A stretch of DNA of 64,000 nt, from the NCBI GenBank assembly GCA_003131315.1, contig PKUV01000120.1, forward strand, positions 33,721-97,720, read 5' to 3'. Below, piece by piece: positions 40,702-63,943 of the stretch (position 1 is the stretch's first letter; each line of letters begins with the position of its first letter). The notes below the pieces were generated by a model. That model saw only the letters and a list, made by a program, of their open reading frames with translations. It had not been told where the DNA came from and made no database searches. The stretch is from Acidobacteriaceae bacterium (GTDB lineage: Bacteria; Acidobacteriota; Terriglobia; Terriglobales; Acidobacteriaceae). A program made the translations under genes and the position numbers.

Positions 40702-40717
40702 CGTTTCCGTTCCTTGG

Positions 40718-41627: not shown

Positions 41628-41706
41628 GCGGCCTGAAATGGACGTGCGCTAGCGTGCAGCAGATCAGGTTGGCTCGGCGGTATTGCTCAATGGGCTGCGG
41701 GCGGCC

Positions 41707-41961: not shown

Positions 41962-41993
41962 GATTTGCTGGAAAGTCTTCGATGGGCTGGAGT

Positions 41994-42707: not shown

Positions 42708-42728
42708 TGTATCCGAGCAGATTCCAGC

Positions 42729-42744
42729 TGTGACATCAGTCACA
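42729..42744. promoter_or_regulatory. Perfect Crp-like operator between regulator and radical SAM gene
   Basis: TGTGACATCAGTCACA is a perfect 16-bp palindrome. It is centred 30 bp before the regulator start and 69 bp before the divergent radical SAM start, implying autoregulation plus control of the other gene. Confidence 0.75.
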
Positions 42745-42805
42745 TGCACCCGGTCACGGGTCTGGCAGTCTTGCCTCCGAGATAAGAAGCAGGCAGGAGG
42801 GCAGT

Positions 42806-43942: not shown

Positions 43943-46553
43943 GATCCGGCGAACCGTCCCATTGCTGTTCAAACACGTTCAGGAATCCAGACTCGCTATA
44001 CATCCGATGTTGCACATCGCCTTCGAGCGCGGAACCGGCCGGCTTCCAGTCACGTCCTCTGGCGTTGCGTGCAGTGTCTAGCATTACCGACGCCCTCCCA
44101 AGGTCCCGTTGCTTCCAGGCGATGTAGCTGCGTAGAAACCATACGTTTACTGCGCGCGGATTCGCCTGACAGGCGCGGGCAAAGCGCTGTTCCGCATTCG
44201 CAAGGTCTCCCTGCGCCAGTGCCACCTGGCCGAGAAGAACCAGTGTTCCGGTCTCTTCCGAATTCAGGTGGAGAGCAGCATCCAATGCCTGTCGCGCAAG
44301 CTCCAGTTGGCTCCTCGAAGATGCGGAGGCGGCGAGAAGTTCTCCTTTCCGTTGAAAGGCGCGATGATTCTGCGGATTGATTCTAGCCAGCGCGTCGAGC
44401 TCCGCAATCGCCGATGGAATGTCGTTCAGTGCCGCCAGGCAATTCGCGAGATAGTAGTGCGAATCCTCATGGCCCGGATTCATCGCGAGTGCCTCGCGGA
44501 ATAATTGTGCAGCCTTCGCAAAGTCCCGCTCACGCTTCATGGCATCCATCGCCGCATGCTGCTTTTCCCAGAACTGTACGAGCCCTGCTCTGTCGAGTTG
44601 GACGCTTGGGTTGGCCCGAGCAAGGTTGGCAGGATGCGGAGTAAAAGACTTCGCCTCCGACTCGCCCTGGGTAATTTCCCAAATGTTATTGGCCGCAAGA
44701 TTTGTCCAGGTCTCCGCCCGCCCGCGCAGCCAGCGCACTTCCAGGCGATCGATCTTCGTTGTCGCGCCCAGCCCGATATGAACGCGGTGGCTGTCTTGCG
44801 ACAGGTAAGAAGAACTGCCCACCGTCCGGCGTATCGGGACCTTGCCCGTCCACGCGATCACGGTTGCACCGTCGCCGAGTCCCAATGGGGCTCCGGTTGG
44901 CGGAACCCGGCTGTGCAGCCTGAACTCGGCCCAATTGCCCTGCGGGATGTCGTTGCGCAACAGCCGCACACCTTCGCCTTGATCCACGATAGCCACATCC
45001 ATCGCACCGTCGTTGTTGAAGTCCGCGACGGCGAGCCCGCGGCTCACATGTGGCTCGGAGAAGGAGCGGTTCCACGGCGCCAGATCGTAGAAGAAACTGC
45101 CTTGGGCATTCCAGAACAAGAACGACGGCATGGGAGTCAGACGGCGTGGTACTGTTTCCTTTTGTTCGAAAGTGCTCCCGTTGGCGACCATGAGATCAGG
45201 CCAGCCATCGGAGTCGAAATCGACGAAGCTCGTGCCCCATCCGATCTTCTGCAACGAGGGTTGCCCGATGCCCATGTTGGCGGCCACGTCGGTGAAGTGC
45301 AACTCCGACGCGTTCGCCATTCCTTTCTGCTCAGAGAGCAGTGATTGATAGAGCGCGAACCCCTGCGCGATCCAGTGCGAAATAAAAAGATCGTCGTCGC
45401 CATCGCGGTCGAAATCCCCTGCGGCCAAGCCCATGGAGCCGCGGTACTCTTCGACCCATGCGCTTCTGCCGGCATCCACGAAGGTCCCGTGGCGGTTCAG
45501 GTACAGCTTGTTCTCCGAGATGTCATTGGCCACATAGAGATCGGGCCAGCCATCGCCATCGAAATCGTGCCAGAGAGCGCTCAGGCTCCGGCCTTCCGGA
45601 TTCGCGACTCCAAGTTCCTGAGCAACTTCCGTGAATGTGCCATTTCCATTATTGCGAAACAGCAGGTTGCGCTCCGGTTCGTAGGAGGCGGGATTTAGCG
45701 TATATGGGACTTCGAGTCCGAACTGCGTTGAGCTGGCGGACGCGTCACGCTCTCCCGGTTTGTACTTTACGTATCCACAGACGTAAAGGTCGAGATAGCC
45801 GTCCCGGTTGTAATCGCCCCACGAGGCGCCCGCCCAGAAGCCTTTTGGGGAAGGAAAGCTCTTGTCACGGACCAAGTGGCCGCGGTCGTTGCGAAACAGG
45901 ATGATGGTGTCGTAACCGGTGACGACCAAGTCCAGCCAGCCATCATTGTTGTAGTCGCCCCAGGCGGCGCCCATGCCGTGAATCCGGAGGTCGGGAAAAT
46001 CCTCGGCTTTCTCAAAACGGCCATCGCCCAAGTTGCGATAGAGCACAGACGGCGCGAGTTGCGAGGCAGGCACACCGAGCGGGCCCCCGCCACTCACTAC
46101 GAACAGGTCATCCAACCCATCATTGTCAAAGTCACCCCATGCCACGCCGGACCCCATGTCCTCCGGCAACTGGGAAGTGCGCGCACCTTCGAACTGCCGG
46201 AAGGACGCCAAGCCTGCGGCCTTCGTCACATCGGTGAATCGCGGCTCGGGCGCCCCCGGTGGAAGATTTCGTCCCGGATCGACCAACCGATCAACCGCGC
46301 GCGAACTCACCGTGTTCTTCACGGCCTGGAGCGGGACGGGTGTCGCTTGTGTGGCCGGTCCGCTCAGCGTACTGGTGATGTCTTTCGAAGCCTCTCCCGG
46401 GGTGTACTCCTCGGGCGCATTCTCCTTGCGAATCCGCCACGTAACCAGAGCCGCGATCAGCACCAGAACAACGAACGTGGAAGCCGTCCACGTGACACGG
46501 CGCAGTCGTTTTGATCCGGTTCGAGGGCGTTCGGCGGGAGCTGTTACCGGCAT
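43893..46553 (-). CDS. FG-GAP/ASPIC-UnbV protein with TPR tail
   Basis: An 886-residue exported or membrane-anchored protein. One helix (residues 24-43) is the anchor. Seven FG-GAP/VCBS-type blades with calcium motifs follow (DFDNDGLDDL, DYNNDGWLDL, DYNRDGYLDL, DFDGDGWPDL, DFDRDGDDDL, DFDSDGWPDL, DFNNDGAMDV), forming a beta-propeller. The ASPIC/UnbV domain comes next (GDGATVIAW, then VHIGLGATTKIDRLEVRWLRG). The final 230 residues are TPR-like repeats. Such proteins mediate protein or surface interactions; function is unproven. It overlaps the upstream multiheme gene by ten bases, so the two are co-expressed. Confidence 0.85.
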   Translation of the reverse strand: MPVTAPAERPRTGSKRLRRVTWTASTFVVLVLIAALVTWRIRKENAPEEYTPGEASKDITSTLSGPATQATPVPLQAVKNTVSSRAVDRLVDPGRNLPPGAPEPRFTDVTKAAGLASFRQFEGARTSQLPEDMGSGVAWGDFDNDGLDDLFVVSGGGPLGVPASQLAPSVLYRNLGDGRFEKAEDFPDLRIHGMGAAWGDYNNDGWLDLVVTGYDTIILFRNDRGHLVRDKSFPSPKGFWAGASWGDYNRDGYLDLYVCGYVKYKPGERDASASSTQFGLEVPYTLNPASYEPERNLLFRNNGNGTFTEVAQELGVANPEGRSLSALWHDFDGDGWPDLYVANDISENKLYLNRHGTFVDAGRSAWVEEYRGSMGLAAGDFDRDGDDDLFISHWIAQGFALYQSLLSEQKGMANASELHFTDVAANMGIGQPSLQKIGWGTSFVDFDSDGWPDLMVANGSTFEQKETVPRRLTPMPSFLFWNAQGSFFYDLAPWNRSFSEPHVSRGLAVADFNNDGAMDVAIVDQGEGVRLLRNDIPQGNWAEFRLHSRVPPTGAPLGLGDGATVIAWTGKVPIRRTVGSSSYLSQDSHRVHIGLGATTKIDRLEVRWLRGRAETWTNLAANNIWEITQGESEAKSFTPHPANLARANPSVQLDRAGLVQFWEKQHAAMDAMKRERDFAKAAQLFREALAMNPGHEDSHYYLANCLAALNDIPSAIAELDALARINPQNHRAFQRKGELLAASASSRSQLELARQALDAALHLNSEETGTLVLLGQVALAQGDLANAEQRFARACQANPRAVNVWFLRSYIAWKQRDLGRASVMLDTARNARGRDWKPAGSALEGDVQHRMYSESGFLNVFEQQWDGSPDPTRVFAPLDAYLRRLR

Positions 46554-48622
46554 GATGACTCAGCTCCGTTGCGTGCCACGCAAACAGTGGCGGTTGCACT
46601 GGCAATATCAACGGCTGGTGCAGTAAGGCCCGACTTCTCTCCCATCGTGTAGTTCAGCAGAAATTGGTCGATCTTGCGGTAGTGCAGCGTGGCCTCGATG
46701 CGTAGTATTCCGCTTGCGTGGCCGAGCGGCACCGAGAACTCGCGATCTCCGTTCGTGTTGGATGCAGGAGCGCGCGGACCACCGGACGGACACATCACGT
46801 TGTACTCGACGGTGTCGGAGTATCCCGGAAACAATGAGCGGCGATACCGTACCCCAACCATCTCCCACAAGTTGTGCCGGTCTATCAGATTGCCGTACTG
46901 GTCGACGGGTTCGGCCTTGAACAGAAACGTACCCGGCTCAAGGAAGTGACGTGCATCGCGTTGTCCCGAAGTGAAAACAATGTGACCGCCCTCATCTTCG
47001 ACCCGCAGCTCGATCCAACTCTGGATCATGTCGAGAGGGCCGGTCGGATAGTCGTGCCCAACTTTGTTCGAGGTCATGATCACACGCACGGGCACCGTCT
47101 GGCCGGGTGCAACAGTTGGCGGACTCTCAATGCGTATCTTCACCACCGGCCCCTCCGCCCATTTGTTGCGAATTTCCGGAATCTCGATATCGCCGTGCAA
47201 CCAACGCTCGGTCAATTCCACTTGCTTGTCCGCGCCATCCAGGTGCAGCAGCGCAGGCACGAAGTTGTTCGCCGCGAGAAAGCGGTGACTGCGGTGCTTG
47301 TGATCGTCGGGCGTACGGTTGTAGTCGGTGGAGTCTCCCGCGGCTGGATCGTTGGAATCCGTCAGGGGCATGTGACACTCGCGGCACTCGACGGTCGTGC
47401 GCGCGTCGCCCTTGTGGTTCCAGTGGCTGGCAGCCCAGTTGTCATATTGGTTCTGCAGTTGCACCCAGCCGACGCGGTTCACTTCCTGATCGATGAATTG
47501 TTTGTGGCAGGCTGCGCAATACTCGGGCTTCTTGTACATGCGCTTGCTCAAGCGGTTGTGCTGCGCAGGCCAGGCGCGGATCAGGAAATTGCGTGCCACC
47601 GCACCCACCGTGTGGTCCGGGCTCCATTGCCAGAGATATTCAGTGGGCTGCGACATGGTGTAATTCGCGTTGCCCTGGATGTCCGTCTTCTGAATGGAGT
47701 GACAGGCGAGACAGGAAATGCCTTCGTTGTAGCCCTGCAGCCCCGTGAGCTTCTCGACAAAGATGTTCTTGGTTCCCGAAAACAGCGAAATCGGATCGTG
47801 GCACCCGCCACAATAGCGCGTAGACTCCGGCCCATTCTGCTTGGCCATGACGTTCTGTATACCCTGGAAAATCGGGTCCATGGCGGCATAGCGGTGGGCA
47901 CTGGTTTTCCATTCGTCGTAGATCTCAGTGTGGCATCCACCTGCGCCACAAGTCTCCGAGCCCGCGAGCGACCGCGCATCGAACGCGCCGTTCGTGGCAG
48001 TGTGAGCCAAACTGGGCGCAAAGGGACGATCTTTGCCAAAGGCATAGCTGTAATTGGACGGAAACGTGTTCCGATATTTCGTTCCGGAGTAGCCCAGCGT
48101 GAGAGCGGCAGCGAGACCGACTCCCAGAACCGTCACACCTGCGCTGGCACCCAACCATCCTGGAGCGCCTCTGGAGGCCTCGACCCTTCTCCGCCGCCAC
48201 CACGCGATGAAGATGTGAGGAACGGTCGCAGCGACGGTCAGCAAGGTTGAGATCAGGTGTAAGTACCGCAGCCACGATGAGGTTTTGACGCCCAGCATTG
48301 CCTGCCAAGTCACCACCAGTCCCGAGATTAGACAGATGGCCAGTGCACCAATCCCGACGTAGCCAAGCAGCAACACGTCCGACAGCGCCTGGTCGGAGTA
48401 GTCATTCCAATGCCGAACCAAATACCACGCCAACGGAGCGATCGTTACTACTCCGGCGATCGTGTGCAGCAGCAGCCCCCATTCTGTTGCCGGACGAAAT
48501 AGGCCGAGCGTGATTGCGAGACCCGAGACCAGTTCGAACAGGAGAATTGCCCCTGTTGCTCTGGCTAGCAGGCTCGACCAACCAACTCGGACACGGTTGG
48601 CCAAAGCTTCAGGTGATTGCAT
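46544..48622 (-). CDS. Membrane cytochrome b / multiheme cytochrome c fusion
   Basis: A 692-residue protein. Residues 15-180 are a membrane domain of about five helices with histidines (LLHTIAGVVTIAPLAWYLVRHW, LRYLHLISTLLTVAATVPHIFIAWW), suggesting a cytochrome-b561-like quinone-side module. A periplasmic multiheme domain follows with CGAGGCH (CX4CH, unusual), CGGCH, CLACH, CAACH and CRECH: four canonical c-heme sites plus one extended. The C-terminal 250 residues are beta-rich. Similar fusions can move electrons from quinol to periplasmic acceptors. ATG 48622 has a GGAG upstream; GTG 48628 is an alternative. A Crp-like site lies 130 bp upstream. Confidence 0.7.
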   Translation of the reverse strand: MQSPEALANRVRVGWSSLLARATGAILLFELVSGLAITLGLFRPATEWGLLLHTIAGVVTIAPLAWYLVRHWNDYSDQALSDVLLLGYVGIGALAICLISGLVVTWQAMLGVKTSSWLRYLHLISTLLTVAATVPHIFIAWWRRRRVEASRGAPGWLGASAGVTVLGVGLAAALTLGYSGTKYRNTFPSNYSYAFGKDRPFAPSLAHTATNGAFDARSLAGSETCGAGGCHTEIYDEWKTSAHRYAAMDPIFQGIQNVMAKQNGPESTRYCGGCHDPISLFSGTKNIFVEKLTGLQGYNEGISCLACHSIQKTDIQGNANYTMSQPTEYLWQWSPDHTVGAVARNFLIRAWPAQHNRLSKRMYKKPEYCAACHKQFIDQEVNRVGWVQLQNQYDNWAASHWNHKGDARTTVECRECHMPLTDSNDPAAGDSTDYNRTPDDHKHRSHRFLAANNFVPALLHLDGADKQVELTERWLHGDIEIPEIRNKWAEGPVVKIRIESPPTVAPGQTVPVRVIMTSNKVGHDYPTGPLDMIQSWIELRVEDEGGHIVFTSGQRDARHFLEPGTFLFKAEPVDQYGNLIDRHNLWEMVGVRYRRSLFPGYSDTVEYNVMCPSGGPRAPASNTNGDREFSVPLGHASGILRIEATLHYRKIDQFLLNYTMGEKSGLTAPAVDIASATATVCVARNGAESSCR

Positions 48623-48926
48623 GTTCACGCTCCGCAGAATGGAGCAAAGCTACGGTCGCAAAATGCCCGCGACAATAGTCCTTTTGCTCTACCGTCATTT
48701 TTTGCGCTCGACAAAAGCATTCAAACTTACAAAGCGGAATCGCGAGTAGCAATGACCAAAGTCACAGCCGCAGACCAACGCAGTGGTAGACGCCAGAGGT
48801 GGCTGGGAACCAAAGCCTTTGGAATTGACTCGAGGAATCCGGTCGGAGGGAAGGTTCGCATCCTCCTGTGACATAAGTCATCGTCTCCATCCCATCGCCC
48901 GCCTAGGCTACCTCTAGGAGAGAACC
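48623..48926. promoter_or_regulatory. Divergent control region with two Crp-like operators
   Basis: The 300-bp gap holds AATGACCAAAGTCACA (48751-48766, facing the multiheme gene) and TGTGACATAAGTCATC (48867-48882), whose centre is 52 bp before the DUF438 gene start. No gene is apparent in the gap. The sites resemble those before ric and the regulator. Confidence 0.65.
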
Positions 48927-51039: not shown

Positions 51040-51416
51040 GGCGGCCGGCCGAAACCGCCCTGTCTTGCAGGCTAGAACGACTGTGAGAAGCGGGCCTCCA
51101 GGAATTCGCCCAGCTTCGCCATGGCACGGAATTGTGGGATCGAATCCAGTTCCTTGAACGCGGACGTAAACGCATTCGAGAGACTCCAGATCGTCCGCGG
51201 CCGGAATTCCTCGTACTTGGGTTCGAAGTAGAGGTCATGCACGTTGCGGGCTAGGTGTTTCGGGGCTTCGAGTTTGCCCTCAACGAATGCCTCGTAGATG
51301 ACCACCTTGGCGGTGACATCCGTCAGTTCGCTCCTCTGCCAAGTCTCCACTTGTTTTCGCATCGGCTCAAAGTTTCGCTGCATGCGGTCAACTCCAACCG
51401 AAATGCAGTCGATGAG
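51040..51416 (-). pseudogene. DUF932-family gene, C-terminal fragment, copy A
   Basis: The minus strand encodes the C-terminal part of a DUF932 (plasmid/phage-associated) protein: DCISVGVDRMQRNFEPMRKQV, ELTDVTAKVVIYEAFVEGKL, HDLYFEPKYEEFRPRTIWSL and AMAKLGEFLEARFSQSF, stop at 51072. An open frame continues upstream to 51701, but that sequence does not look like the family's N-terminus, and the repeat with copy B stops at 51416. The whole segment is duplicated at 63565-63943. Function of the family is unclear; it is common on mobile elements. Confidence 0.7.
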
Positions 51417-52920: not shown

Positions 52921-53367
52921 CTAACGGCGACACGCGGTGCAGTATCCCCCGACTTCCAGCCGAGCCACAAGAATATGAAAGCGGCATTCCTGCTCCATCT
53001 GACTCTTGAGAGATTCGAATCGCTCGCTCACAAACTCGGTGATCTTGCCACAGCGCAGACAAGCCATGTGAATGTGGTCGCGGCCCAGTTTGCGTTCGTA
53101 GTAGTGGCCTTCACCATTCAGATGCATCAAGTCGAGTTCGTCAATCATACCTTGCCGCTTTAACAATCCCAGTGTCCGGTAGACGGTGCTGCGATCGACA
53201 GAAGGGTCCAACTTCTGTGCCTTGCGCAAGAGTTGACTGGCGTCTAAATGTTTGTTGGCAGTTTCGATCACGCTCAGAATGGCACGGCGCTGATCGGTCA
53301 TGCGGATCCCTCGCTGTGCCAGCAGCGCCTGCAGGCGTCCAGGAATCTCGGTCTCGGGAAACGGCAT
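52921..53367 (-). CDS. fur: Fur-family regulator
   Basis: A 148-residue metal-dependent repressor. The winged helix has MTDQRRAILSVIETANKHLDASQLLRKAQ and STVYRTLGLLKRQGMI. The regulatory part has ERKLGRDHIHMACLRCGKITEF, and the C-terminus ends GGYCTACRR; two CxxC pairs give a structural zinc site. Specificity among Fur, Zur and PerR cannot be settled from sequence, but the neighbouring FeoAB and receptor genes favour iron. A TTGC palindrome before its start and a second in the divergent gap suggest autoregulation. Confidence 0.85.
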   Translation of the reverse strand: MPFPETEIPGRLQALLAQRGIRMTDQRRAILSVIETANKHLDASQLLRKAQKLDPSVDRSTVYRTLGLLKRQGMIDELDLMHLNGEGHYYERKLGRDHIHMACLRCGKITEFVSERFESLKSQMEQECRFHILVARLEVGGYCTACRR

Positions 53368-53387: not shown

Positions 53388-53497
53388 GTCGCAACTGGTT
53401 GCAATGACGCTGCGACAGAATCTTGCGGCCCGCATTGACAGTCGCGGCTCGGGAACCGTACCCTTAGATTGTAATCGTTGTTGCGACTGAGTTGCAA
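53388..53497. promoter_or_regulatory. TTGCRAC-type palindromes in the fur divergent gap
   Basis: TCGCAACTGGTTGCAA (53389-53404, two-base centre) lies about 30 bp before fur. TTGCGAC-TGA-GTTGCAA (53481-53497) lies about 28 bp before the divergent Cys-rich gene. A third, TTGCGAC-TGT-GTCGTAA, is at 57205-57221 before the TonB receptor. The arms are nearly identical, so these are candidate operators, possibly for the local Fur. Confidence 0.6.
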
Positions 53498-53516
53498 CAC
53501 GAAACTGAAAGAAATC

Positions 53517-53843
53517 ATGGCCAGCGAACCACGCCAGTGTGCGGACGACGTCAGACCGTTTCAGTGCTTCTTCTGTCCGAACGGCTGCGTCTGCCTCCGC
53601 TGGCATCGCACTTTGCTTCTGCATTTCAGCCGGGACGACGTGTCCCGCGCACTGGAGTGTCTGGAAGACCTGCTGAAGCAGCCCACGGGCGCGTTCGTCC
53701 TGGGCGGCGGGCCGTTTTGCGCCTGCCGCGCGGCCGATGGCTTCTGCTATCTGGTGTGTCAGGACCGAGTCGTTCTCCGGCTTTCGGCGGAAAACGCCCG
53801 CGACCTGTATAGCGAACTGGCCTCTGTCCGAGCCCGAGTCTGA
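53517..53843 (+). CDS. Cysteine-rich hypothetical protein
   Basis: A 108-residue soluble protein with a dense N-terminal cysteine set (CADDVRPFQCFFCPNGCVC) then LRWHRTLLLHFSRDDVSRALECLEDLL and GGGPFCACRAADGFCYLVCQDRVVLRLS. The arrangement could hold zinc or an iron-sulfur cluster. It is divergent from fur, with a TTGC palindrome just upstream, so may be iron-responsive. No family recognised. Confidence 0.55.
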   Translation: MASEPRQCADDVRPFQCFFCPNGCVCLRWHRTLLLHFSRDDVSRALECLEDLLKQPTGAFVLGGGPFCACRAADGFCYLVCQDRVVLRLSAENARDLYSELASVRARV

Positions 53844-54030: not shown

Positions 54031-55026
54031 ATGGGCGGCAATACATGCATCTTTCGCAGAAGTGTCACTCTTTGCAGCGATCATCCCAGTAGAAGAAAGA
54101 TTTTCAAACTTCGACGATTGGGCGCAGCTTGTTTGCTCTCCGTGCTGATTCTGGCGGTACTCGCTTTGCCCGAAGCGCGGGCTGACGAACCGGTCTTCGG
54201 GTTCAGCTACACGACCGACCTGCTTCCGAAGCACAAGTTTGAACTGGAACAATGGTCCACAACCCGCTTTACGAAGTATCCCGGCGGCAAATTCTGGTTG
54301 CAGGAGAATCGCACGGAGGAGGAATGGGGCTGCAGTGACAAGCTGCAACTATCCCTCTATCAGATCTATGATTCGACCCACGCATTTCACAATGGTCCTT
54401 TCGGGGCGACGACGCCGGCGGAGCAGTTTCAGTACTACAACCCGGGTCCTGACGATCATTTCAGCGCTACTAAGTTCATCGGTGTTTCCGGGGAGGTAAT
54501 CTACCGGCTGACCAGTCCCTACACTCATCACGTCGGCGTGGCGCTCTACACGGAACCCACCGTCGGCGCCGCGTTTTTCGAGTTCGAAAACAGACTCATA
54601 TTTCAGAAAAACTTCAGAGACGACCGCCTCATCTTTGCCGCAAACCTAACCTACGCACCGGAGTTGCGGCGGGTGGCAGACCCTTCGAACCCATCGAAGA
54701 AGAGCATCCAGGAAGAAACAGACGCGAATATCAGTCTGGGTGCGTCGTACCGCTTCAGGAGGAATTGGTCGGGCGCGTTTGAAATCTTCAACGAGCGCGA
54801 ATTCAACAGCTACAACTTCACGCAGGAATCCAACAGCGGCTACTACCTGGGGCCGGCCGTCCACTACGGGGGAAAGAATTTCTTCGTTACCGCGGGGTTC
54901 TACGAGCAAATGCCCTGGGCAAGCCCGCATGTGGCCACCGTACCGGGCGGTATCGTGGGCGGGCGAATCGTTGACAACGATTTTGAGAAGTATCGCGTCC
55001 GCGTGAAAGTCGGCTGGTACTTCTGA
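54031..55026 (+). CDS. Outer-membrane beta-barrel-like protein (DUF6662-type)
   Basis: A 331-residue exported protein. A signal helix (LGAACLLSVLILAVLALPEARA) precedes FGFSYTTDLLPKHKFELEQWSTTRF, followed by alternating strands such as HVGVALYTEPTVGAAFFEFENRLIF and GYYLGPAVHYGGKNFFVTAGFY, ending with a C-terminal aromatic GWYF as expected of outer-membrane barrels. It leads the FMN-binding/ApbE/membrane-protein run. It may be a porin or scaffold; function unproven. AGGAG lies seven bases before the start. Confidence 0.65.
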   Translation: MGGNTCIFRRSVTLCSDHPSRRKIFKLRRLGAACLLSVLILAVLALPEARADEPVFGFSYTTDLLPKHKFELEQWSTTRFTKYPGGKFWLQENRTEEEWGCSDKLQLSLYQIYDSTHAFHNGPFGATTPAEQFQYYNPGPDDHFSATKFIGVSGEVIYRLTSPYTHHVGVALYTEPTVGAAFFEFENRLIFQKNFRDDRLIFAANLTYAPELRRVADPSNPSKKSIQEETDANISLGASYRFRRNWSGAFEIFNEREFNSYNFTQESNSGYYLGPAVHYGGKNFFVTAGFYEQMPWASPHVATVPGGIVGGRIVDNDFEKYRVRVKVGWYF

Positions 55027-55034
55027 GGCAGAGC

Positions 55035-55568
55035 ATGAAAGCGAAACTCATTTTTATCCCACTCGCGGGTATCGTGATCGCTGGCGGACCAGCCTACGCT
55101 ACCGTGTTCCTCTCGGTGGAGCAGGCGCAATCGGTCCTGTTCCCTGGAGCAACGTTTCAGCCCGACACACGCATGCTTACCGATGAGCAGGTCAAGGCCA
55201 TTGAGCGCGCGTCGGGTGTCAATGTTCGTAGCAAGCAGATGAAAGTCTGGCGGGTCTCCACCGGTGGCTGGTTCATCGTCGACGAGGTGGTAGGCAAGCA
55301 CGAGTACATTCCCTTCGCGTTGGGCCTGGATGATCGAGGCGCAGTGAAGGGGGTAGAGGTCTTGGAGTACCGGGAAGCCTACGGGGACCAGATTCGCAAT
55401 CCGGAATGGCGCAAGCAGTTTTTAGACAAAGGACCGGACACGAAGCTTCAACTCGGCAAGAACATCCACAACATATCCGGAGCGACTCTCTCCTGCAAAC
55501 ATATAACCGATGGGGTGCAACGCCTTTTGGCAACCTATGAACTCGTACTCAAACAGTCTGAGCGTTGA
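55035..55568 (+). CDS. Flavinylated FMN-binding domain protein
   Basis: A 177-residue exported protein with signal peptide (LIFIPLAGIVIAGGPAYA) and an FMN-binding domain ending in NISGATLSCKHITDGV. The motif S-G-A-T-x-S contains the Thr (about residue 151) that ApbE modifies covalently with FMN. It should be a periplasmic one-electron carrier. It starts eight bases after the outer-membrane gene and overlaps apbE, encoding its own maturation enzyme next door. Confidence 0.9.
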   Translation: MKAKLIFIPLAGIVIAGGPAYATVFLSVEQAQSVLFPGATFQPDTRMLTDEQVKAIERASGVNVRSKQMKVWRVSTGGWFIVDEVVGKHEYIPFALGLDDRGAVKGVEVLEYREAYGDQIRNPEWRKQFLDKGPDTKLQLGKNIHNISGATLSCKHITDGVQRLLATYELVLKQSER

Positions 55569-56439
55569 ACGAGCGCAGCCGTGGCTGGGTACGCTCGTCA
55601 GCATTCGGATCGAGGGGCTTCCGGTCCCGCAAGCACACCGCGCAATCGATGCCGCATTCAAGGAAATAGCGGTGGTTCATCGCAGGATGAGCTTTCACGA
55701 TGCGGACAGCGACGTCGGCCAGCTCAACCGGAACAGGACTCGCCGGCCGGTGACCGTGCACCCCTACACGTTTGAGGTGCTGCAGTGGGCGATGAGGTTG
55801 TCCAGTTTCTCCAACGGCTGTTTCGATATTTCTGTGGCTGCGGAGCTGGTGGACTGGCAACTCCTGCCTCGCCCTGCTGGCGCGGAGCATGTCCCGCGCG
55901 GTTCATGGCGGGACATTGAACTGCTGCCCGATTGCCAGGTCGTATTTCATCGGCCCCTGTGGATCGACCTAGGTGGGATCGCCAAGGGCTTTGCCGTAGA
56001 TCGTGCCACGGAGCGCCTGCGCGCCTGCGGCGCGTTGCACACCGTCGTCAATGCTGGTGGAGACATTCGGGTACAGGGAAAGAGTGCGGCGATGATTCGC
56101 TTGGGGGCAGAATCGTCAACGCATGCGATGCCTGTGCTTGAACTGGCCGATGGCAGCGTGGCTGGCAGCAGCAGTCAACGGCAGTGGCGCTGCGATGCCG
56201 GACTCCCGTGCAGTCCTCATGTCGATGGCATTCAGCGTTCACCTGCGCCCACAGACCGTTTTGTTTGCGTCGTGGCAAAACAATGCGTTGTGGCCGATGC
56301 CTTGACGAAGGTTGTTATGGCGCAGGGCCAGGATAGCGTCCGGACTCTGCGGCAGTTTGGAGCATCGGCCCATCTGTACGCTTCGCCAGGTGTATGGCGC
56401 CACCTTGAGCCTGACGAGAGGGGAGCGGAAACAGAGTGA
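55537..56439 (+). CDS. apbE: FAD:protein FMN transferase ApbE
   Basis: A 300-residue enzyme that moves FMN from FAD to a Thr/Ser of target proteins. Features are LGTLVSIRIEGL, MSFHDADSDVGQLNR, FDISVAAEL, WIDLGGIAKGFAVDRATERL and NAGGDIRVQGK, all ApbE family blocks. No clear signal peptide or lipobox is seen, so its location is uncertain. It overlaps the FMN-binding gene by 32 bp (ATG 55537) and the next gene by four. Confidence 0.92.
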   Translation: MNSYSNSLSVERAQPWLGTLVSIRIEGLPVPQAHRAIDAAFKEIAVVHRRMSFHDADSDVGQLNRNRTRRPVTVHPYTFEVLQWAMRLSSFSNGCFDISVAAELVDWQLLPRPAGAEHVPRGSWRDIELLPDCQVVFHRPLWIDLGGIAKGFAVDRATERLRACGALHTVVNAGGDIRVQGKSAAMIRLGAESSTHAMPVLELADGSVAGSSSQRQWRCDAGLPCSPHVDGIQRSPAPTDRFVCVVAKQCVVADALTKVVMAQGQDSVRTLRQFGASAHLYASPGVWRHLEPDERGAETE

Positions 56440-57005
56440 ATGCTTCGTCTAAGAAGCCGGGAAGGCTGGGACATTCCAGGCGGATTGCTCTCTACACAAT
56501 CGGTATCGGAGTTTGGCTCTCCGGCGGGCTGTGGCTGGTCTTTCACTATTTCCTGGTCAAAGAGGGGGAATTCGGTCCGACGGCAAATCCCCTCGAACCG
56601 TGGTGGTTGAAGCTGCATGGGGCATTCGCGTTTGCTGCTATATGGATATTCGGCCTCATGTGGGGCGTGCATATCACCGACGCATGGCCGCACAAGCACT
56701 GGCGGTGGTCGGGCGGCGTGCTGGCTGGCGTCTTTGCCTTCCTGATCGTGAGCGGTTACCTGCTCTACTACGCGGGGGATGACAGGGTTCGTCCCATTGT
56801 GTCCGTACTTCATTGGGGGATAGGCTTGGCGTGCCCGATCTTCTTTGTTGCCCACCGCCTCCATCTTAAGAAGTATCGGTACCGACAGCCGATGCTTTCA
56901 GCGCCGGCTTCCTTCATGGCCCAAACTGTCCGAGCCGACGCCCTGGCAGATGGTAGCGCTCCTGTTGCTCAACGTCATGCCAGCGACGCCGAGGACTCCC
57001 GCTGA
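56436..57005 (+). CDS. Four-helix membrane cytochrome-b-like protein
   Basis: A 189-residue membrane protein with four helices (about residues 17-40, 60-82, 92-115, 122-143). Histidines lie in or next to helices (VFHYFLV, KLHGAFAFAAIWIFGLMWGVHI, VLHWGIGLACPIFFVAHRLH), the pattern of diheme b-type quinol-linked proteins such as DUF4405 members. It could pass electrons from quinol to the flavinylated periplasmic protein. GTG 56436 overlaps the apbE stop (GTGA). Heme is inferred. Confidence 0.65.
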   Translation: MNASSKKPGRLGHSRRIALYTIGIGVWLSGGLWLVFHYFLVKEGEFGPTANPLEPWWLKLHGAFAFAAIWIFGLMWGVHITDAWPHKHWRWSGGVLAGVFAFLIVSGYLLYYAGDDRVRPIVSVLHWGIGLACPIFFVAHRLHLKKYRYRQPMLSAPASFMAQTVRADALADGSAPVAQRHASDAEDSR

Positions 57006-57096: not shown

Positions 57097-57221
57097 GGCT
57101 GTGATTTTGGTCACAGCCTTTCTCGGAGCGATTTGCGATTATGAAAATGAAATTCAGTTTCAACTAGAGTCGCGGCAGCCGCGATTTTATTTTTGGGTCA
57201 TCTGTTGCGACTGTGTCGTAA
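57097..57221. promoter_or_regulatory. Receptor promoter with Crp-like, Fur-box-like and TTGC palindromes
   Basis: Three operators lie in line. TGTGATTTTGGTCACA (57100-57115), within a longer GGCTGTGA/TCACAGCC palindrome, fits the Crp type. GAAAATGAAATTCAGTTTC (57143-57161) matches the E. coli Fur box at 14 of 19 positions. TTGCGACTGTGTCGTAA (57205-57221) resembles the fur-promoter palindrome. Both iron and anaerobic/NO signals may therefore control the receptor-feo genes. Confidence 0.6.
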
Positions 57222-57246
57222 CTAGTACAAAGACCGGAGGCGAGAG

Positions 57247-60200
57247 ATGAACCGGGATCAACAAACTTTCAAGGTTTCGCCATATAGATTACTCATCCTC
57301 ATAACTTCTTCGGCCGCGGTTCTCCTCATCATCTTATGTGGCTCGGGATGGGCGCAGATGGCGAGCATCTCCGGCACCGTCGTTGACCCTACCGGCGCCG
57401 TTGTCGCTGGCGCAACCGTCACAGTTCAGAACTCGGACGCCGGTCAGCACCAGAAGGGCACTACCGGCGATAATGGCTCGTTTAGTTTTCCCGCGCTTGC
57501 TCCCGGTCACTACCAGCTGCGAATCGATGCTTCCGGATTCAAGCCATACCTTCAGACCGGCATGGATCTCGGCGCGTCGGCTGCGCGCAAAGTGGACGTT
57601 GCGCTAGAGCTGAAGTCCGAAGCAACAACGGTCGAGGTCAGCGCTGACAGCGTCCAGATCGATATCTCAACCACCCAAATGGGCGAGACCATCGCCGCTA
57701 ACAAGATGACCAGCGTCCCCTTGAACGGGCGAAGCTTTACCGATCTGATGGCCATTCAACCTGGCATCGTTCCCACCAGTTCGCAGCAGCCCAATGCCGT
57801 GGTCATGAGCGGCGTCACCAGCACATCCCCGTCCGGCGATCTGAACGCGGGAAACACGTCCATCAGCGGTCAGCGGGAAACCGCGAATGGGTTCCGCGTT
57901 AACGGCAGTGATGTGGAAGAGGACGTGAACATGGGAACCGCCATTGTTCCCAATCTCGATTCGATCCAGGAATTGCGCCTTCTGACGAGCAGTTTCGATG
58001 CCGAATACGGCAACTACAGCGGTGGGCAGATTCTCGTTATCACCAAGTCCGGCGCCAATCAATTCCACGGGGACGGATTCGAGTTTTTGCGCAATACCAA
58101 CCTTGACGCGCGGAACTACTTCTCTGCCCAGCGTGCGAAGTTCGAACAGAATCAGTTTGGGGGAACACTCGGCGGGCCGCTCCATGAAGATCGAGTTTTC
58201 TTCTTTGCCGACTATCAAGGCACTCGCCTGAATCAGGGCGTAGACACGGGCCGGATTTCGGTGCCGTCAATGCAGGAACGCACGACAGGCAACTTCTCGG
58301 ACCTAGTGGATAATTCCAACGGCTTCAATCCGCTCGGTTTCTGCGGCGCCATGCAAGCGCCTGGCGCAACACAAACGCTTGAGATTCCCTGCACTGTAAG
58401 CGGGTCGAACATTGCAACAATGCTGTCCCGGAAATTGCCATACGCGGTCCAGAGCGGCGAGGCGTATTACTTCAGCGGACCCACGCAGCAGAATCCCAAA
58501 GGTGGACCCTGTGTTAGCAACGACCCGGTGAGCGGATGCGTTTTTCCGAACGCCACAGTCCCTATGAGCGCATGGGTCGCACCCGGCACGAATTTGCTGC
58601 CGTACATTCCCAAACCCAATCAGGCGGGAAATGTGTTTTCTACCTCGGCCTACAACGAGACCCTTCGCGATGACAAAGGAGCGATCAGAATCGACGCCAA
58701 CACGCGCTGGGGATCCGTTGCCGCGTACTACTTCCTGGACGATTACGCCCTGAACAATCCGTACCCGACAGGTCAGGGAGGGGCCAATGTTCCGGGCTTC
58801 AACGCCATGACGCTGGGCCGGGCGCAGTTGCTGAGTCTCGGCATCACCAAGGCGTTTGGGGCGAATGCGGTCAATGAATTGCATTTCAGCTACATGCGCG
58901 ATGCGAACAACGCAGGACGCCCGGTAGGTGGCGTAGGGCCGAGTTTGGCTTCCCAAGGATTTGTTGGGATCGTTCCGCTGGCTCCTGGGATTGAAGGCAT
59001 CGAGAACGTTTCGTTCAACGACTTCACCTTCGGCGTGGACACCACAGGACTAACGCAGGTCAACAATACATTCCAGTGGATGGAAAACTATTCCAGGACC
59101 ATCGGCAAACACACAATCAAGGTTGGCGGAGAATTCCACGTGGACCAGATAGACACTAACCCCGATCCCGTTTTTAATGGCGCTTTCGTGTTCCAGGGGA
59201 CCGAAACGGGCGCGGACTTGGCGGACTTTCTGCTTGGGATCGCGAGCAGCTACAACCAGGCCGATTCCCAGCGGTTCTACAACCGCAACAGGTATGAGGG
59301 CCTGTTCGCCCAGGATAGCTGGCGCATCAGGCACAATCTCACGCTGAACTACGGTTTGCGTTGGGACGTGATCTCGCCTTGGTCCGAGAAGTACAACCAG
59401 CTTCAGACCTTGGTTCTCGGCGAGCAATCCCGCGTTTACCCAGGAGCGCCGGCCGGGCTCGTCTTCCCCGGCGATACTGGCGTCCCGCGAACTCTTGCTC
59501 CGACGAAATACGACAACTTCGCGCCGCGCATTGGCTTTTCCTACTCTCCGGATCGGCAGAACGGCTGGCTCGCGAAGATCTTCGGCGGACCGGGTAAGAC
59601 CAGCATTCGCGCTGGCTATGGTCTTTTCTACACGGCATTCGAAGGCTTGTCCGCGGGCATCATGAGCGCTAACCCGCCCTACGGCTACGACTACACCAGT
59701 CTTGCCCCGCCATTGTTTGCCACACCTTTCGTCACGGCAGCAAGCGGCCGGAACGTCGGCCAGCGCTTCCCGTTAACGTTTCCCTCGTTTGGAGCATCGC
59801 CGAGTCATCCAGATTCGAGTGTCAACTGGTCGCAATACCTCCCGATCACTGGCGTGCCGGCCTTCTTCCACCGGAATGTGCCGCCTTACTCCGAGAGCTA
59901 CATGCTTTCACTCCAACGGGAAATTGCCCCGAAGACCCTCCTCAGCGTCAGTTATGTCGGTACGCAGGCTCATCACCTGCTTGTGCTGACTTCGGCGAAT
60001 CCAGGCAATCCCGCGTTGTGCTTGAGCCTCAGTCAAACGAATCAGGTCATGCCGGGCTCACCGACCTGCGGGCCATTTGGCGAAAGCGGCACCTACACCA
60101 CGCCTGCGGGCGCAGTCATTCAAGGAACGCGAGCACCCTTCAGCTCTCAGTTCGCCGCCATCACTTACCAGAAAACCATCGCGAATTCGAACTACAACGC

Positions 60201-60903
60201 GCTTCAGGTCAATCTCCGTCACAGCTCCGAACGACTGGAGTTCATGGTTGGCTACACGTACAGCAAGTCCCTTGACCAATCTTCCAGTTTGGCTGAAGCA
60301 GTCAATCCGCTCGATCCACAGTTAAGCAGGGCCCTTTCTGCTTTTGATATGCGTGACAATTTTGTGGCGAGCTACAGGTACCGGCTGCCGGTCAGCAATC
60401 TCTTCCGACACCAGCACGGTTGGACTGAAGGGTGGGCCCTCTCTGGCTTGACCCGGTTCACCACCGGGTTTCCTGTGACCCTTTACAACAACACCGACCG
60501 ATCGTTGCTCGGGACCATACCAAACGGTATCAACAACAACGGCGTCGACACGCCGAACTTCACCTCTGGCAACCTCGAAATCAATACCAACCCGCGTAAC
60601 GGAAACCCTGCCTTCAACGCCTCGCTTTTCACCCTCCCGGCACTGCGGCAGGTCGGCACTGCGCCAAGGCGTTTCTTCGGCGGGCCAGGAATCGACAATT
60701 TTGACATCGCACTCGAAAAGGACGTAAGGCTGTCCGAGTCCAGATCGCTAGAATTCCGGCTGGAGGCCTTCAATGTCTTCAACCATGCGCAGTTCTACGG
60801 GCCCGCGGCAGTCAATGGCAACATCAGCAGTGCCAATTTCGGTCAGGTAGTGAGTGCAGCGCCTCCGCGACTCGTTCAATTGGCTGCCAAATTCTCTTTC
60901 TAA
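57247..60903 (+). CDS. TonB-dependent receptor with carboxypeptidase-regulatory domain (Oar-like)
   Basis: A 1218-residue outer-membrane protein. After a signal segment (LLILITSSAAVLLIILCGSGWA) comes a carboxypeptidase-regulatory beta domain (SISGTVVDPTGAVVAGATVTVQN), then plug-like motifs (VPLNGRSFTDLMAIQPG, VNGSDVEEDVNMGTAIVPNLDSIQELRL) and a long barrel ending RLVQLAAKFSF. This Oar type is expanded in Acidobacteriota and usually has unknown substrates. With Fur, FeoA and FeoB beside it, iron chelates are a plausible cargo. Intact; its promoter holds three operator candidates. Confidence 0.85.
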   Translation: MNRDQQTFKVSPYRLLILITSSAAVLLIILCGSGWAQMASISGTVVDPTGAVVAGATVTVQNSDAGQHQKGTTGDNGSFSFPALAPGHYQLRIDASGFKPYLQTGMDLGASAARKVDVALELKSEATTVEVSADSVQIDISTTQMGETIAANKMTSVPLNGRSFTDLMAIQPGIVPTSSQQPNAVVMSGVTSTSPSGDLNAGNTSISGQRETANGFRVNGSDVEEDVNMGTAIVPNLDSIQELRLLTSSFDAEYGNYSGGQILVITKSGANQFHGDGFEFLRNTNLDARNYFSAQRAKFEQNQFGGTLGGPLHEDRVFFFADYQGTRLNQGVDTGRISVPSMQERTTGNFSDLVDNSNGFNPLGFCGAMQAPGATQTLEIPCTVSGSNIATMLSRKLPYAVQSGEAYYFSGPTQQNPKGGPCVSNDPVSGCVFPNATVPMSAWVAPGTNLLPYIPKPNQAGNVFSTSAYNETLRDDKGAIRIDANTRWGSVAAYYFLDDYALNNPYPTGQGGANVPGFNAMTLGRAQLLSLGITKAFGANAVNELHFSYMRDANNAGRPVGGVGPSLASQGFVGIVPLAPGIEGIENVSFNDFTFGVDTTGLTQVNNTFQWMENYSRTIGKHTIKVGGEFHVDQIDTNPDPVFNGAFVFQGTETGADLADFLLGIASSYNQADSQRFYNRNRYEGLFAQDSWRIRHNLTLNYGLRWDVISPWSEKYNQLQTLVLGEQSRVYPGAPAGLVFPGDTGVPRTLAPTKYDNFAPRIGFSYSPDRQNGWLAKIFGGPGKTSIRAGYGLFYTAFEGLSAGIMSANPPYGYDYTSLAPPLFATPFVTAASGRNVGQRFPLTFPSFGASPSHPDSSVNWSQYLPITGVPAFFHRNVPPYSESYMLSLQREIAPKTLLSVSYVGTQAHHLLVLTSANPGNPALCLSLSQTNQVMPGSPTCGPFGESGTYTTPAGAVIQGTRAPFSSQFAAITYQKTIANSNYNALQVNLRHSSERLEFMVGYTYSKSLDQSSSLAEAVNPLDPQLSRALSAFDMRDNFVASYRYRLPVSNLFRHQHGWTEGWALSGLTRFTTGFPVTLYNNTDRSLLGTIPNGINNNGVDTPNFTSGNLEINTNPRNGNPAFNASLFTLPALRQVGTAPRRFFGGPGIDNFDIALEKDVRLSESRSLEFRLEAFNVFNHAQFYGPAAVNGNISSANFGQVVSAAPPRLVQLAAKFSF

Positions 60904-60982: not shown

Positions 60983-61261
60983 ATGGAGCTAGAAATGACC
61001 TATCCGTGCGTCGCGCTCATCGATCTCGAAGTCGGGGAAGCAGGCACTATCGACCATATCTCCTTGCCTCCCGCCGATCAGCAGTTCCTGATGCGTATCG
61101 GTTTTGTTCCGGGCGCGCAGGTCAGATACTCCCGTCGCGCGCCCTTGGGCGACCCAGGTGTGTATTCGGTTGACGGAACCGAAATTGCGCTGCGGGCGGA
61201 GACCGCGAGTTACATCTTCGTTCAGCGAGGGTACCGTTCCGGATTGGGTGATTTGCCGTGA
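60983..61261 (+). CDS. feoA: Ferrous iron transport protein FeoA
   Basis: A 92-residue SH3-like cytoplasmic protein that supports FeoB: GEAGTIDHISLPPADQQFLMRIGFVPGAQVRYSRRAPLGDPGVYSVDGTEIALRAETASYIFV. The L-x-x-x-G-F/V-P-G-x-V block is the family signature. The start is ATG 60983; an internal Met is possible. It overlaps feoB by GTGA, so they are one operon, 80 bp after the receptor. Confidence 0.92.
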   Translation: MELEMTYPCVALIDLEVGEAGTIDHISLPPADQQFLMRIGFVPGAQVRYSRRAPLGDPGVYSVDGTEIALRAETASYIFVQRGYRSGLGDLP

Positions 61262-63153
61262 CGGCCATTCCGACTGAACCCTTGATCGCCACCCGTGGAA
61301 AAATCCCTGAGGGCCCGAGGCGTGACATCCGGACGGTGGCCCTGATCGGCCCGCCCAACTCGGGGAAGTCGACGCTGTTCAATCGTCTGACCCGCCTTCG
61401 TCAAAAGGTCGGGAATTACCCAGGCGTAACCGTCGAGCAGCGCGTCGGTCTGCTCGCTGGCAGCGGACAAGAGATCAAGCTCATTGATCTGCCCGGTGTG
61501 TACAGCCTGACGCCTTATTCCGAAGATGAACGAGTCGCCGTTGACGTGCTAACCGGTCAGATGGACGGCCTGCCTCGCCCGGATGCGGTTTTGCTGATCC
61601 TGGATGTAACCCATCTCTCACGCCAACTCGTATTAGCGGCACCCGTAATCGCTTTGGGTCTGCCTACCCTCGTGCTCTTGAATATGGCGGATGCTTTTGC
61701 AAAGGGAGGTGGCTCGCTGGACGTTCTCAAACTCGCCGAGGAACTGGGGACGCCCGTTGCCATGGTAAGTGCGACACAGGGGACCGGGTTGGACGCAGTG
61801 GCCCGATTCTTGGGAGGAGATCGCGATCAACGTCCAGTCCCTTTGCTTCCGATTCTACAGAATCTTCCGCAGTGCCGAAAATGGGCGAATCAGCTTGGCC
61901 GTCGAATCGACTACCAGCGCCCACTTCCCAACGTTTGGACCCGTCGGCTGGACGACATATTTCTGCACAAGCTGTGGGGGCCGCTCATTTTTGTGGTGGT
62001 CGTAGGTGCCGTTTTCCAAACTGTGTTTGGACTCGGCCAGCCCATGAGCACGGCGCTTCAGGATCTGCTCACAAAGCTTGGGCTGCAAGCGGCACCCTTT
62101 ATCCCTGCCGGTCTTCTCAGGTCACTTCTCGTGGATGGCCTTTGGAAGGGCGTGAGTTCCGTGCTGGTGTTCCTTCCCCAGATTCTGCTGCTCTTCCTCT
62201 TTATAGGGGTACTGGAGGATTCCGGCTATCTGGCCCGTGCTGCGCTGATAGCGGACCGTACAATGCGGAGCGTGGGGTTGAACGGAAAGGCCTTCATTCC
62301 TCTTTTATCGGCCCATGCGTGCGCCGTTCCCGCGATCATGGCGACGCGCACAATCGAGAACAAGCGAGACCGGATCGCGACCATTCTGATCGCGCCCTTC
62401 ATGACCTGTTCGGCCCGGTTGCCGATCTACACGTTGCTCATCGCCGCTTTTATTCCGGATCGCCCGGTCATCGGCGTACTGCTCGGAGCAAGGGCCTGCG
62501 CCATGCTCCTGCTCTACATGCTCGGGTTTCTTGCAGCCATCGCCACTGCGAAACTTCTCAAATCATCGGTACTCAAATCTGCTGCCGTTCCATTTGTGCT
62601 GGAACTTCCAGAGTATCGGCGTCCGACATGGCAGTCTATCGGCCTTCGCCTGCTCGATCGCGCACGGGTCTTCCTGCGGCAGGCGGGAACTGTCATCCTG
62701 GCAGTCTCTTTACTGGTGTGGGTCCTAACTCATCTGCCGCTCCGCGACGGCCATTCGCCAGAACTGGAGCACAGCGCGATCACCTACCTAGGGCATGGAA
62801 TTGAGCCGCTCATCCGGCCTCTCGGCTTCAATTGGAAAATCGGCGTCGGTCTGCTGACATCCATAATCGCGCGCGAAGTGATCGTCGGAACCCTGGGTAC
62901 GATCTATGGTGCTGATCCCGCAACGCAATCGATGACGCTCCAAAACGCGCTGCGGCAAGATCTCACTCCCGCCGGGGCCATGGCGCTGCTGGTCTTCTTT
63001 GCGTTTGCCATGCAATGCACATCGACTTTGGCGGTTGTTCGCCGCGAGACCAATAGCTGGAAATGGCCCCTCGTGCAATTTGCATACATGACCGGTATCG
63101 CTTACTCCTCGGCTCTATTGGTTAACCAAATCCTGTCAAGGCTTCTCAGATAA
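61258..63153 (+). CDS. feoB: Ferrous iron transporter FeoB
   Basis: A 631-residue inner-membrane Fe2+ importer. The N-terminal G domain has GPPNSGKST (G1), NYPGVTVEQ (G2), DLPGVYSL (G3) and NMAD (G4), and about ten membrane helices follow with the Gate motif CAVPAIMATR. GTG 61258 starts it after FeoA. Length is a little short of the usual 700-770, mainly because the C-terminal part is compact. It brings ferrous iron made available by reduction outside the cytoplasm. Confidence 0.95.
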   Translation: MTAIPTEPLIATRGKIPEGPRRDIRTVALIGPPNSGKSTLFNRLTRLRQKVGNYPGVTVEQRVGLLAGSGQEIKLIDLPGVYSLTPYSEDERVAVDVLTGQMDGLPRPDAVLLILDVTHLSRQLVLAAPVIALGLPTLVLLNMADAFAKGGGSLDVLKLAEELGTPVAMVSATQGTGLDAVARFLGGDRDQRPVPLLPILQNLPQCRKWANQLGRRIDYQRPLPNVWTRRLDDIFLHKLWGPLIFVVVVGAVFQTVFGLGQPMSTALQDLLTKLGLQAAPFIPAGLLRSLLVDGLWKGVSSVLVFLPQILLLFLFIGVLEDSGYLARAALIADRTMRSVGLNGKAFIPLLSAHACAVPAIMATRTIENKRDRIATILIAPFMTCSARLPIYTLLIAAFIPDRPVIGVLLGARACAMLLLYMLGFLAAIATAKLLKSSVLKSAAVPFVLELPEYRRPTWQSIGLRLLDRARVFLRQAGTVILAVSLLVWVLTHLPLRDGHSPELEHSAITYLGHGIEPLIRPLGFNWKIGVGLLTSIIAREVIVGTLGTIYGADPATQSMTLQNALRQDLTPAGAMALLVFFAFAMQCTSTLAVVRRETNSWKWPLVQFAYMTGIAYSSALLVNQILSRLLR

Positions 63154-63564: not shown

Positions 63565-63943
63565 TGGGAAGGGACGGTCGGCCGACACTGCTCCGATGGC
63601 TAGAACGATTGTGAGAACCGGGCCTCCAGGGATTCGCCTAACTTCGCTGTCGCCTTGAATTGTGGGATGGGATCCAGTTCCTTGAATGCCGACGTGAACG
63701 CATTGGAAAGACTCCAGATCGTTCGCGGCCGGAATTCTTCGTATTTCGGCTCGAAGTAGAGGTCATGCACGCTGCGGGCAAGGTGCTTCGGAGCTTCAGT
63801 TTGCCCTCAACGAACGCCTCGTAGATGACCACCTCGGCCGTGACATCGGTGAGTTCACTCCTCTGCCAGAGCTCCACCTGCTTTCGCATCGGCTCGAAGT
63901 TTCGCTGCATTCGATCCATGCCAACCGAGATGCAGTCGATGAG
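63565..63943 (-). pseudogene. DUF932-family gene, C-terminal fragment, copy B (frameshifted)
   Basis: This segment repeats 51040-51416 at high similarity and encodes the same C-terminal DUF932 region (DCISVGMDRMQRNFEPMRKQV, ELTDVTAEVVIYEAFVEGKL). A one-base loss near 63795 (GCTTCAGTTTG where copy A has GCTTCGAGTTTG) shifts the frame, so the end of the protein is no longer in frame. Similarity stops at 63943, where copy A also diverges. The gene is not functional in this form. Confidence 0.7.

Follow-up and report, generated by a model that had tools for sequence, protein, structure and literature searches.

Extracytosolic gene clusters associated with flavinylation have been described (Meheust 2021, PMC8238504), some of them accompanied by iron transporters and Fur, and their membrane electron-transfer proteins fall into five classes, NapH, MsrQ, PepSY, DsbD and NQR/RNF-like, which are defined by Pfam and KEGG families. 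Proteins of the DUF4405 and FezC types bind haem b in vitro and are described as six-helical or dimeric (Huang 2024, PMC11334425). A table of iron-responsive, Fur-regulated genes in Caulobacter (PMC3751524) has entries for an ApbE/DUF2271/DUF4198 cluster, their values lying between 12 and 51, and for this cluster as for hiuABC (PMC13001220) a periplasmic reduction of ferric iron has been proposed; the cluster, hiuB and the iron-transporter co-localisations of PMC8238504 are the precedents for the mechanism considered here. No counterpart of the known periplasmic reductases, vciB for example, is reported to have been found in Sphingobium strain SYK-6 (PMC7376174), and the periplasmic reduction step of Fe2+ uptake is unassigned in some Gram-negatives. 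A defined candidate for that step is the four-gene module considered here, which lies in a 64,000-nucleotide stretch of DNA (the window; positions 33,721 to 97,720 of contig PKUV01000120.1, assembly GCA_003131315.1) from an Acidobacteriaceae bacterium with a genome of 6.0 Mb. It encodes a predicted outer-membrane beta-barrel of the DUF6662 family, an exported FMN_bind protein (FMN, flavin mononucleotide), an ApbE and a small four-helix membrane protein, and we lean, with confidence only a little above even, to seeing in it a self-contained and iron-responsive trans-envelope electron-transfer module that would be controlled by Fur, fed by quinol and used to reduce ferric iron, or another acceptor, in the periplasm. 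Electrons would probably run from the inner membrane by way of the flavoprotein towards the outer membrane, and the module has the look of an iron-reducing system, so far uncharacterised, that as a rule lies away from genes for iron uptake.

In the list of open reading frames (ORFs) the four genes form a near-gapless run on the plus strand, as follows.

54031-55026, plus strand: DUF6662 outer-membrane beta-barrel (PF20367, 3.4e-7, 30.5 bits against a cut-off of 27)
55035-55568, plus strand: exported FMN_bind protein with a signal-peptide-like N-terminal stretch (PF04205, 3.9e-9; the genome's only FMN_bind match)
55476-55493, plus strand: SGATLS flavinylation motif read from the sequence, with the predicted FMN site at Thr151
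55510-56439, plus strand: ApbE FAD:protein FMN transferase (PF02424, 3.9e-39; the genome's only ApbE match)
56436-57005, plus strand: four-helix membrane protein of 189 residues, a predicted di-haem b cytochrome by structure prediction and the conserved His61, His79, His126 and His140

A gap of 8 bp separates DUF6662 from FMN_bind, the FMN_bind and ApbE genes overlap by 59 bp and those of ApbE and the 189-residue protein by 4 bp; the DUF6662, FMN_bind and ApbE proteins all exceed their own Pfam cut-offs. The coupled run of an outer-membrane protein, an FMN_bind protein with SGATLS, an ApbE and a histidine-bearing membrane protein, to which a sequence-only reading of this DNA had drawn attention, is thus upheld by ORFs and Pfam, and so is its description as a flavinylation electron-transfer module, by the FMN_bind and ApbE domains and by a four-histidine membrane protein whose relatives match b561 and DUF4405. 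Open literature searches, whose scope stopped short of subscription papers, preprints and supplements, returned no paper on DUF6662 by name and, in titles and the starts of abstracts, no description of the four-gene set, and the DUF6662 family gains its first functional context from the module.

Like the clusters of PMC8238504, the module has an FMN_bind protein with a [S/T]GA[S/T] motif, an ApbE and a membrane electron-transfer protein. It departs from them in that Pfam places its membrane protein in none of the five classes, although a distant kinship is possible, and in that a barrel is its near-constant partner; a text search for DUF6662, porin and beta-barrel found none of these in the main text of that paper, its supplements being outside the scope. 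With DUF4405 and FezC (PMC11334425) are shared four central histidines, an association with apbE and a suggested role in iron, whereas four long helices are predicted here as opposed to six, the partners are FMN_bind and a barrel as opposed to Flavodoxin_4, and only 14 of 60 module cytochromes match DUF4405 at E 0.01, the protein of the window not among them. The likeness to the Caulobacter cluster (PMC3751524) and to hiuABC (PMC13001220) is one of Fur control, here predicted, and of flavinylation or a putative haem-binding inner-membrane protein; the membrane and substrate families differ by name, and hiuABC goes with a TonB receptor while the module goes with a small barrel.

The distribution of the module was followed from a search of genome_contigs with three aligned FMN_bind proteins, of whose relatives (at least 494) the best 80 were taken, each with a locus of up to 10 kb on each side; just 44 of the 80 loci exceed 20 kb, so that neighbours can be missed at contig ends. 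By record title they come from Acidobacteria, Dyella, Luteibacter, sphingomonads, Caulobacteraceae, Variovorax, Verrucomicrobia, Nitrospinaceae and others, and the module is found in cultured strains, among them Dyella silvae (L082) and Novosphingobium sp. PhB165 (L105), both with a box as described below; it offers a predicted site for a regulator, a residue predicted to carry FMN and four candidate haem ligands. FMN_bind is present in all 80, ApbE in 79, the cytochrome in 78 and a barrel in 74, and 70 loci have the complete module, some of the missing members belonging to loci at contig ends (L130, L136, L146). The outer-membrane protein that the sequence-only reading placed in the run is therefore not only a member of it but a near-constant partner, of the DUF6662 type in 63 loci and porin-like in 16, with both types in 5. 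A sister set was drawn from the phylum, in which the cytochrome is present in 59 of 297 genomes, by taking the best-scoring 40 of the 58 cytochrome hits outside the window's own genome; one locus (L047) was dropped for an FMN_bind match above the E limit, and the 39 that remain have the cytochrome in every case, a barrel in 37 (36 of the porin type and 1 DUF6662) and ApbE in 23. Because the cytochrome and the barrel hold at 39/39 and 37/39 when ApbE falls to 23/39, the conserved core is the FMN protein, the cytochrome and the barrel. The distribution is patchy, since the 59 cytochrome hits include, the window's own genome aside, no genome of the same family or class. Near relatives of the FMN_bind protein (60-81%) occur in other Acidobacteria metagenome-assembled genomes (MAGs) and in Dyella, and this patchy spread hints at transfer.

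As for control of the module, two Fur-box-like palindromes were found by a motif scan in the window, each on both strands, with 0.25 matches expected.

53480-53498, both strands: Fur-box-like palindrome GTTGCGACTGAGTTGCAAC, 19 bp, between fur and the module
57204-57222, both strands: second Fur-box-like palindrome GTTGCGACTGTGTCGTAAC, a near copy, before the receptor-feoAB genes

Similar sites stand upstream of the module in L073 (0 mismatches), L075 and L097, the last with two boxes that are both just at 3 mismatches, and in these same three loci a close relative of the window's Fur-family protein is encoded beside the module. In L039, L041, L044 and L057 a Fur-family gene stands in the module's own run. 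Five variants of a Fur-type consensus were scored, a box being counted from 13 of 16 upwards. On this count 19 of 60 DUF6662 starts have a box, and among the other genes of these loci 12 of 478 starts do (p = 2e-12; 60 of the 80 loci were used, the rest having no DUF6662 start inside the locus), and a permuted consensus gives 7 in 2,400. When whole loci are scanned (32 of the 40 sister loci and 75 of the 80, those with a start too near a contig end or with no FMN_bind match being excluded), the sister set has 18 boxes in the 16.6 kb of its operon starts and 6 in the other 493 kb, with 17 of 32 loci having one at the start; for the 80-locus set the figures are 28 boxes in 39.0 kb and 27 in 1,229 kb, with 24 of 75 loci having one at the start. 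The density at module starts is thus 30-90 times that elsewhere in the same DNA, and permuted consensuses average 0.36 (sister set) and 0.52 (80-locus set) at the same starts. A Kangiella MAG, for instance, carries the box ATTGATAATAATTATCATT, and a Novosphingobium the box AATGCGAAGCAATCGCATT. Fur, PerR and Zur sites are indistinguishable here, although the classical variants are those of Fur. An iron-type regulatory signature at the module starts, with Fur as its predicted binder, is what we infer from these sites, and to this extent the link to iron drawn in the sequence-only reading holds (17/32 and 24/75 operon starts), although as a linkage to feo it does not.

Several observations weigh against an iron-responsive module of this kind. 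Among the seven closest loci, L072, L074, L076 and L077 have no box that reaches threshold. At that threshold 15 of the 32 loci scanned in the sister set have none, nor do 51 of the 75 scanned in the 80-locus set. None was found in the 13 Verrucomicrobiota-titled loci (L090, L092, L093, L096, L102, L104, L106, L107, L111, L118, L119, L123 and L127), which keep most or all of the module and where control or role could differ. In the window's own genome the box pattern, at up to 3 mismatches, is in no excess genome-wide over the control (90/76 against 75/76). The variants were partly chosen after sites in the same loci had been viewed, loci of one genus are not independent in the counts, and the box counted in L094 is no more than a simple repeat. 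A box regulon across the window's genome was also sought and not found, the three other sites viewed (C104 at 30766, C170 and C83) lying inside coding ORFs.

In the FMN_bind protein SGATLS is invariant across the alignment of three sequences, and the motif is exact in 71 of the 80 relatives and of the [S/T]GA[S/T] type in 75. An N-terminal hydrophobic stretch is seen in 65 of the 80 by a crude count, and the start of the protein is signal-peptide-like in both locus sets. The ApbE of the window has no recognisable signal peptide, and a hydrophobic stretch before the first motif is found in 0 of 76 scored ApbE proteins of the 80-locus set, whereas 15 of 20 from the sister set have one, as judged by a crude hydrophobicity count on stop-to-stop frames. 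In the 80-locus clade, then, either the flavin would be attached to the FMN_bind protein before its export or ApbE would leave the cytosol by another route. In one locus (L041, 7966-8682) a RibD_C gene of the riboflavin pathway follows directly on a fur-porin-FMN_bind-cytochrome run, a possible link to flavin supply.

The 189-residue membrane protein has no Pfam match at E 0.1 and, up to E 1, just VKOR (0.15) and DctQ (0.67), so that NapH, MsrQ, PepSY, DsbD and NQR/RNF-like families go unmatched to that limit; nor do any of these five classes appear among the 18 families matched at E 0.01 by the 60 aligned members (the window protein and 59 relatives). Every sequence of that alignment has His79 and His126, and conservation is at least 90% for His61 and His140. 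The AlphaFold2 model has four long membrane-length helices (mean predicted local distance difference test score, pLDDT, of 86), with His61 and His79 on the second predicted transmembrane helix (54-83) and His126 and His140 on the fourth (118-149), and on a reading of loop charge the pair His61/His126 would face the periplasm and His79/His140 the cytoplasm. Prokaryotic cytochrome b561 (Ni_hydr_CYTB, PF01292) is matched by 23 of the 60 members at E 0.01 (best 2e-7, the window member not among them), and a sister protein, that of L033, passes the DUF4405 cut-off with 27.4 bits against 26.7. The best structural alignment is to hydrogenase-1 cytochrome b (Z 11.4, 4.1 Å, 133 residues), with cytochrome b6f and a designed di-haem protein following and ion-channel and chemoreceptor helices lower in the list, and for helical bundles a Z below about 13 carries little meaning. 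Foldseek gave no match at E 0.001, and searches of solved-structure sequences with two profiles gave nothing useful. On balance the protein is likely a di-haem b cytochrome.

Among the same fold matches is the superoxide oxidase of E. coli (Z 10.3, 3.6 Å, 134 residues), and this raises a flow in the reverse direction, with the b-type protein as a sink for periplasmic oxidants, the flavoprotein passing electrons to quinone and a PerR-like regulator in charge. That the Fur-family proteins of L039, L047, L057 and L063 are only distant relatives of the window's would suit such a regulator. The Z value however falls in the uninformative range just given, and the boxes of the Kangiella and Ralstonia loci resemble classical Fur boxes; we hold this reversal to be very improbable.

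Porin-cytochrome conduits such as MtrCAB are built of an inner-membrane quinol side, a periplasmic carrier and an outer-membrane barrel. The module as proposed shares these three parts, with a predicted beta-barrel in the outer membrane, and differs in having a flavin carrier, no c-type haem motif (CXXCH is absent from the four module proteins of the window) and a small barrel of 12 strands, as modelled for DUF6662 by AlphaFold2 (mean pLDDT 88). The model comes closest in fold to FapF (Z 22.7, 3.0 Å, 238 residues), followed by the COG4313 channel (Z 21.7, 2.7 Å, 233 residues). It could be that the barrel receives the FMN protein, either inside it or beneath it, and that electrons leave for extracellular acceptors through a flavin-based conduit across the outer membrane free of c-type haems, and the near constancy of the barrel (74/80 and 37/39 loci), the placing of two barrel types on the same core (63/80 and 16/80) and the missing CXXCH are all as such a conduit would have them. 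Yet a barrel of 12 strands is narrow if a protein is to plug it, the module has no recognised surface redox protein, and the folds that the barrel matches best belong to secretion channels, small-molecule channels and autotransporters, so that a conduit of this sort seems quite improbable. The near-constant barrel could serve ferric chelates as a way in or an electron wire as a way out. A bolder combination, which we think unlikely if somewhat less so than the conduit, has the barrel, the flavoprotein and the di-haem b protein as one trans-envelope wire or channel-coupled reductase, free of haem c, induced by iron limitation, shared by Acidobacteriota and Proteobacteria and indifferent to which barrel type it employs.

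Downstream of the module the window carries genes for Fe2+ uptake, and upstream a regulator, which with the intervening features are these.

52921-53367, minus strand: Fur-family regulator gene (PF01475, 3.8e-26; one of two FUR genes in the genome)
53517-53843, plus strand: cysteine-rich ORF of 108 residues between the box and the module (no match in Pfam or NCBIfam)
57165-57189, plus strand: terminator-like hairpin from a hairpin scan
57247-60903, plus strand: TonB-dependent-receptor-like outer-membrane protein (OMP_b-brl_4; PF25183, 4e-177)
60983-61261, plus strand: feoA (PF04023, 4.2e-17)
61258-63153, plus strand: feoB (FeoB_N 7.2e-48; TIGR00437 7.5e-139; the genome's only FeoB_C match)

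FeoB, ApbE and FMN_bind are each single-copy in the genome and all three are at this locus. The order given in the sequence-only reading, with the run followed by the receptor and feoAB, is right, but a single unit is not what the spacing suggests: because the 241 bp between module and receptor hold a terminator-like hairpin and a palindromic box, the two are probably separate transcription units, hairpins of this type being near chance in the region (5 counted, 4.3 expected). Likewise fur does lie on the other side, but with the 108-residue ORF between it and the module, an ORF with no counterpart among the ORFs listed for the relative loci. The receptor was set aside as evidence on iron, its family being uninformative because PF25183 is expanded in this genome (81 matched stretches).

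With feoAB about 4 kb downstream and a matching box before the receptor gene, the module might be a ferric reductase dedicated to FeoB, as the sequence-only reading proposed, and FeoB is met again in L056 and L149. A survey of neighbours speaks for something else. FeoB is near the module in 2 of the 80 loci, strongly in L149 and weakly in L076 (2.5e-5), and in 1 of the 39 sister loci, FeoA is found in none of the 80 and 39, a Fur-family gene is found in 4/80 and 7/39 and a related receptor in 5/80 and 1/39. Across the phylum FeoB is present in 224 of 297 genomes, namely in 42 of the 59 with the cytochrome and 182 of the 238 without it (Fisher p = 0.40), and 17 of the 59 cytochrome-bearing genomes have no FeoB match, 10 of them being at least 90% complete and 7 under 90%. 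The feo linkage is therefore local, by the 2/80 loci and the want of a genome-level association, and as a defining feature of the module it was rejected. An exclusive supply of Fe2+ to FeoB is accordingly not borne out, and we consider it unlikely; the outcome that the sequence-only reading had itself named as counting against it, a module that is widespread apart from iron genes and in other company, is what the survey found as far as feo is concerned. The low counts and the missing genome-level association tell against the iron-responsive reading in general too, as does a tally of 147 hand-picked flanking ORFs (73 of 305 upstream and 74 of 305 downstream, leaving out, among others, the known Fur and receptor neighbours of L073, L075 and L097), in which no recurrent iron family appears by Pfam, no Pfam family has over 3 matching ORFs at E 1e-5 and many of the ORFs are housekeeping.

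On the iron-responsive reading the module could work as follows. Under iron limitation a Fur-family repressor would come off the palindromic box and the operon would be expressed. The four-helix protein, with two b haems presumably held by the pairs His61/His126 and His79/His140, would draw electrons from quinol and hand them to the exported FMN_bind protein, on whose Thr151 ApbE would have placed the FMN. Once reduced, this flavoprotein might then pass them to periplasmic ferric iron, or to small ferric chelates entering by way of the DUF6662 or porin barrel, and the Fe2+ so formed would be taken up by FeoB where it is present, as here with its like box, or elsewhere by another importer.

Iron as the electron acceptor is put conditionally, because peroxidase partners occur in some loci. 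Six loci of the porin type (L034, L052, L061, L126, L129 and L138; weakly also L109) encode a cytochrome c peroxidase within the run or close to it, which suggests another acceptor and counts against periplasmic iron in that place; in L034 a CCP_MauG gene is immediately 5' of porin-FMN_bind-ApbE-cytochrome, and a plasmid of Ideonella dechloratans (L155) has an annotated cytochrome c peroxidase gene at the equivalent place. The electrons could in that case feed a periplasmic enzyme, such a peroxidase or another oxidoreductase, with expression under iron limitation reflecting the replacement of haem c by flavin and so a sparing of iron; that flavinylation is possibly advantageous in iron-poor settings is raised in PMC8238504. 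Against this, the strong peroxidase matches are confined to porin-type loci, none being found with two queries in any DUF6662 locus or among the scanned proteins of the window, the module would itself need two haems if the histidines are rightly read, and a dedicated barrel would be superfluous. Supply of an enzyme is, to our minds, unlikely to be the role, and periplasmic reduction of ferric iron is retained as the reading to which we lean.

Around the fur-module-feo locus stand direct repeats (51070-51416 and 63598-63943) that are 87-88% alike. A mobile element bounded by them is unsupported, the repeat being a dispersed one of about 400 bp with 23 matches genome-wide. Further upstream (24540-42749) lies a nitrate/NO island with a nitrate reductase beta subunit, a NorB-type NO reductase, ScdA/hemerythrin and a Crp-type regulator, and with an NnrS-like gene that scores below its cut-off. 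Near the locus, on the minus strand at 46544-48628, is a multihaem cytochrome-like protein with Cytochrome_C7 and C554 matches and a hydrophobic N-terminal part.

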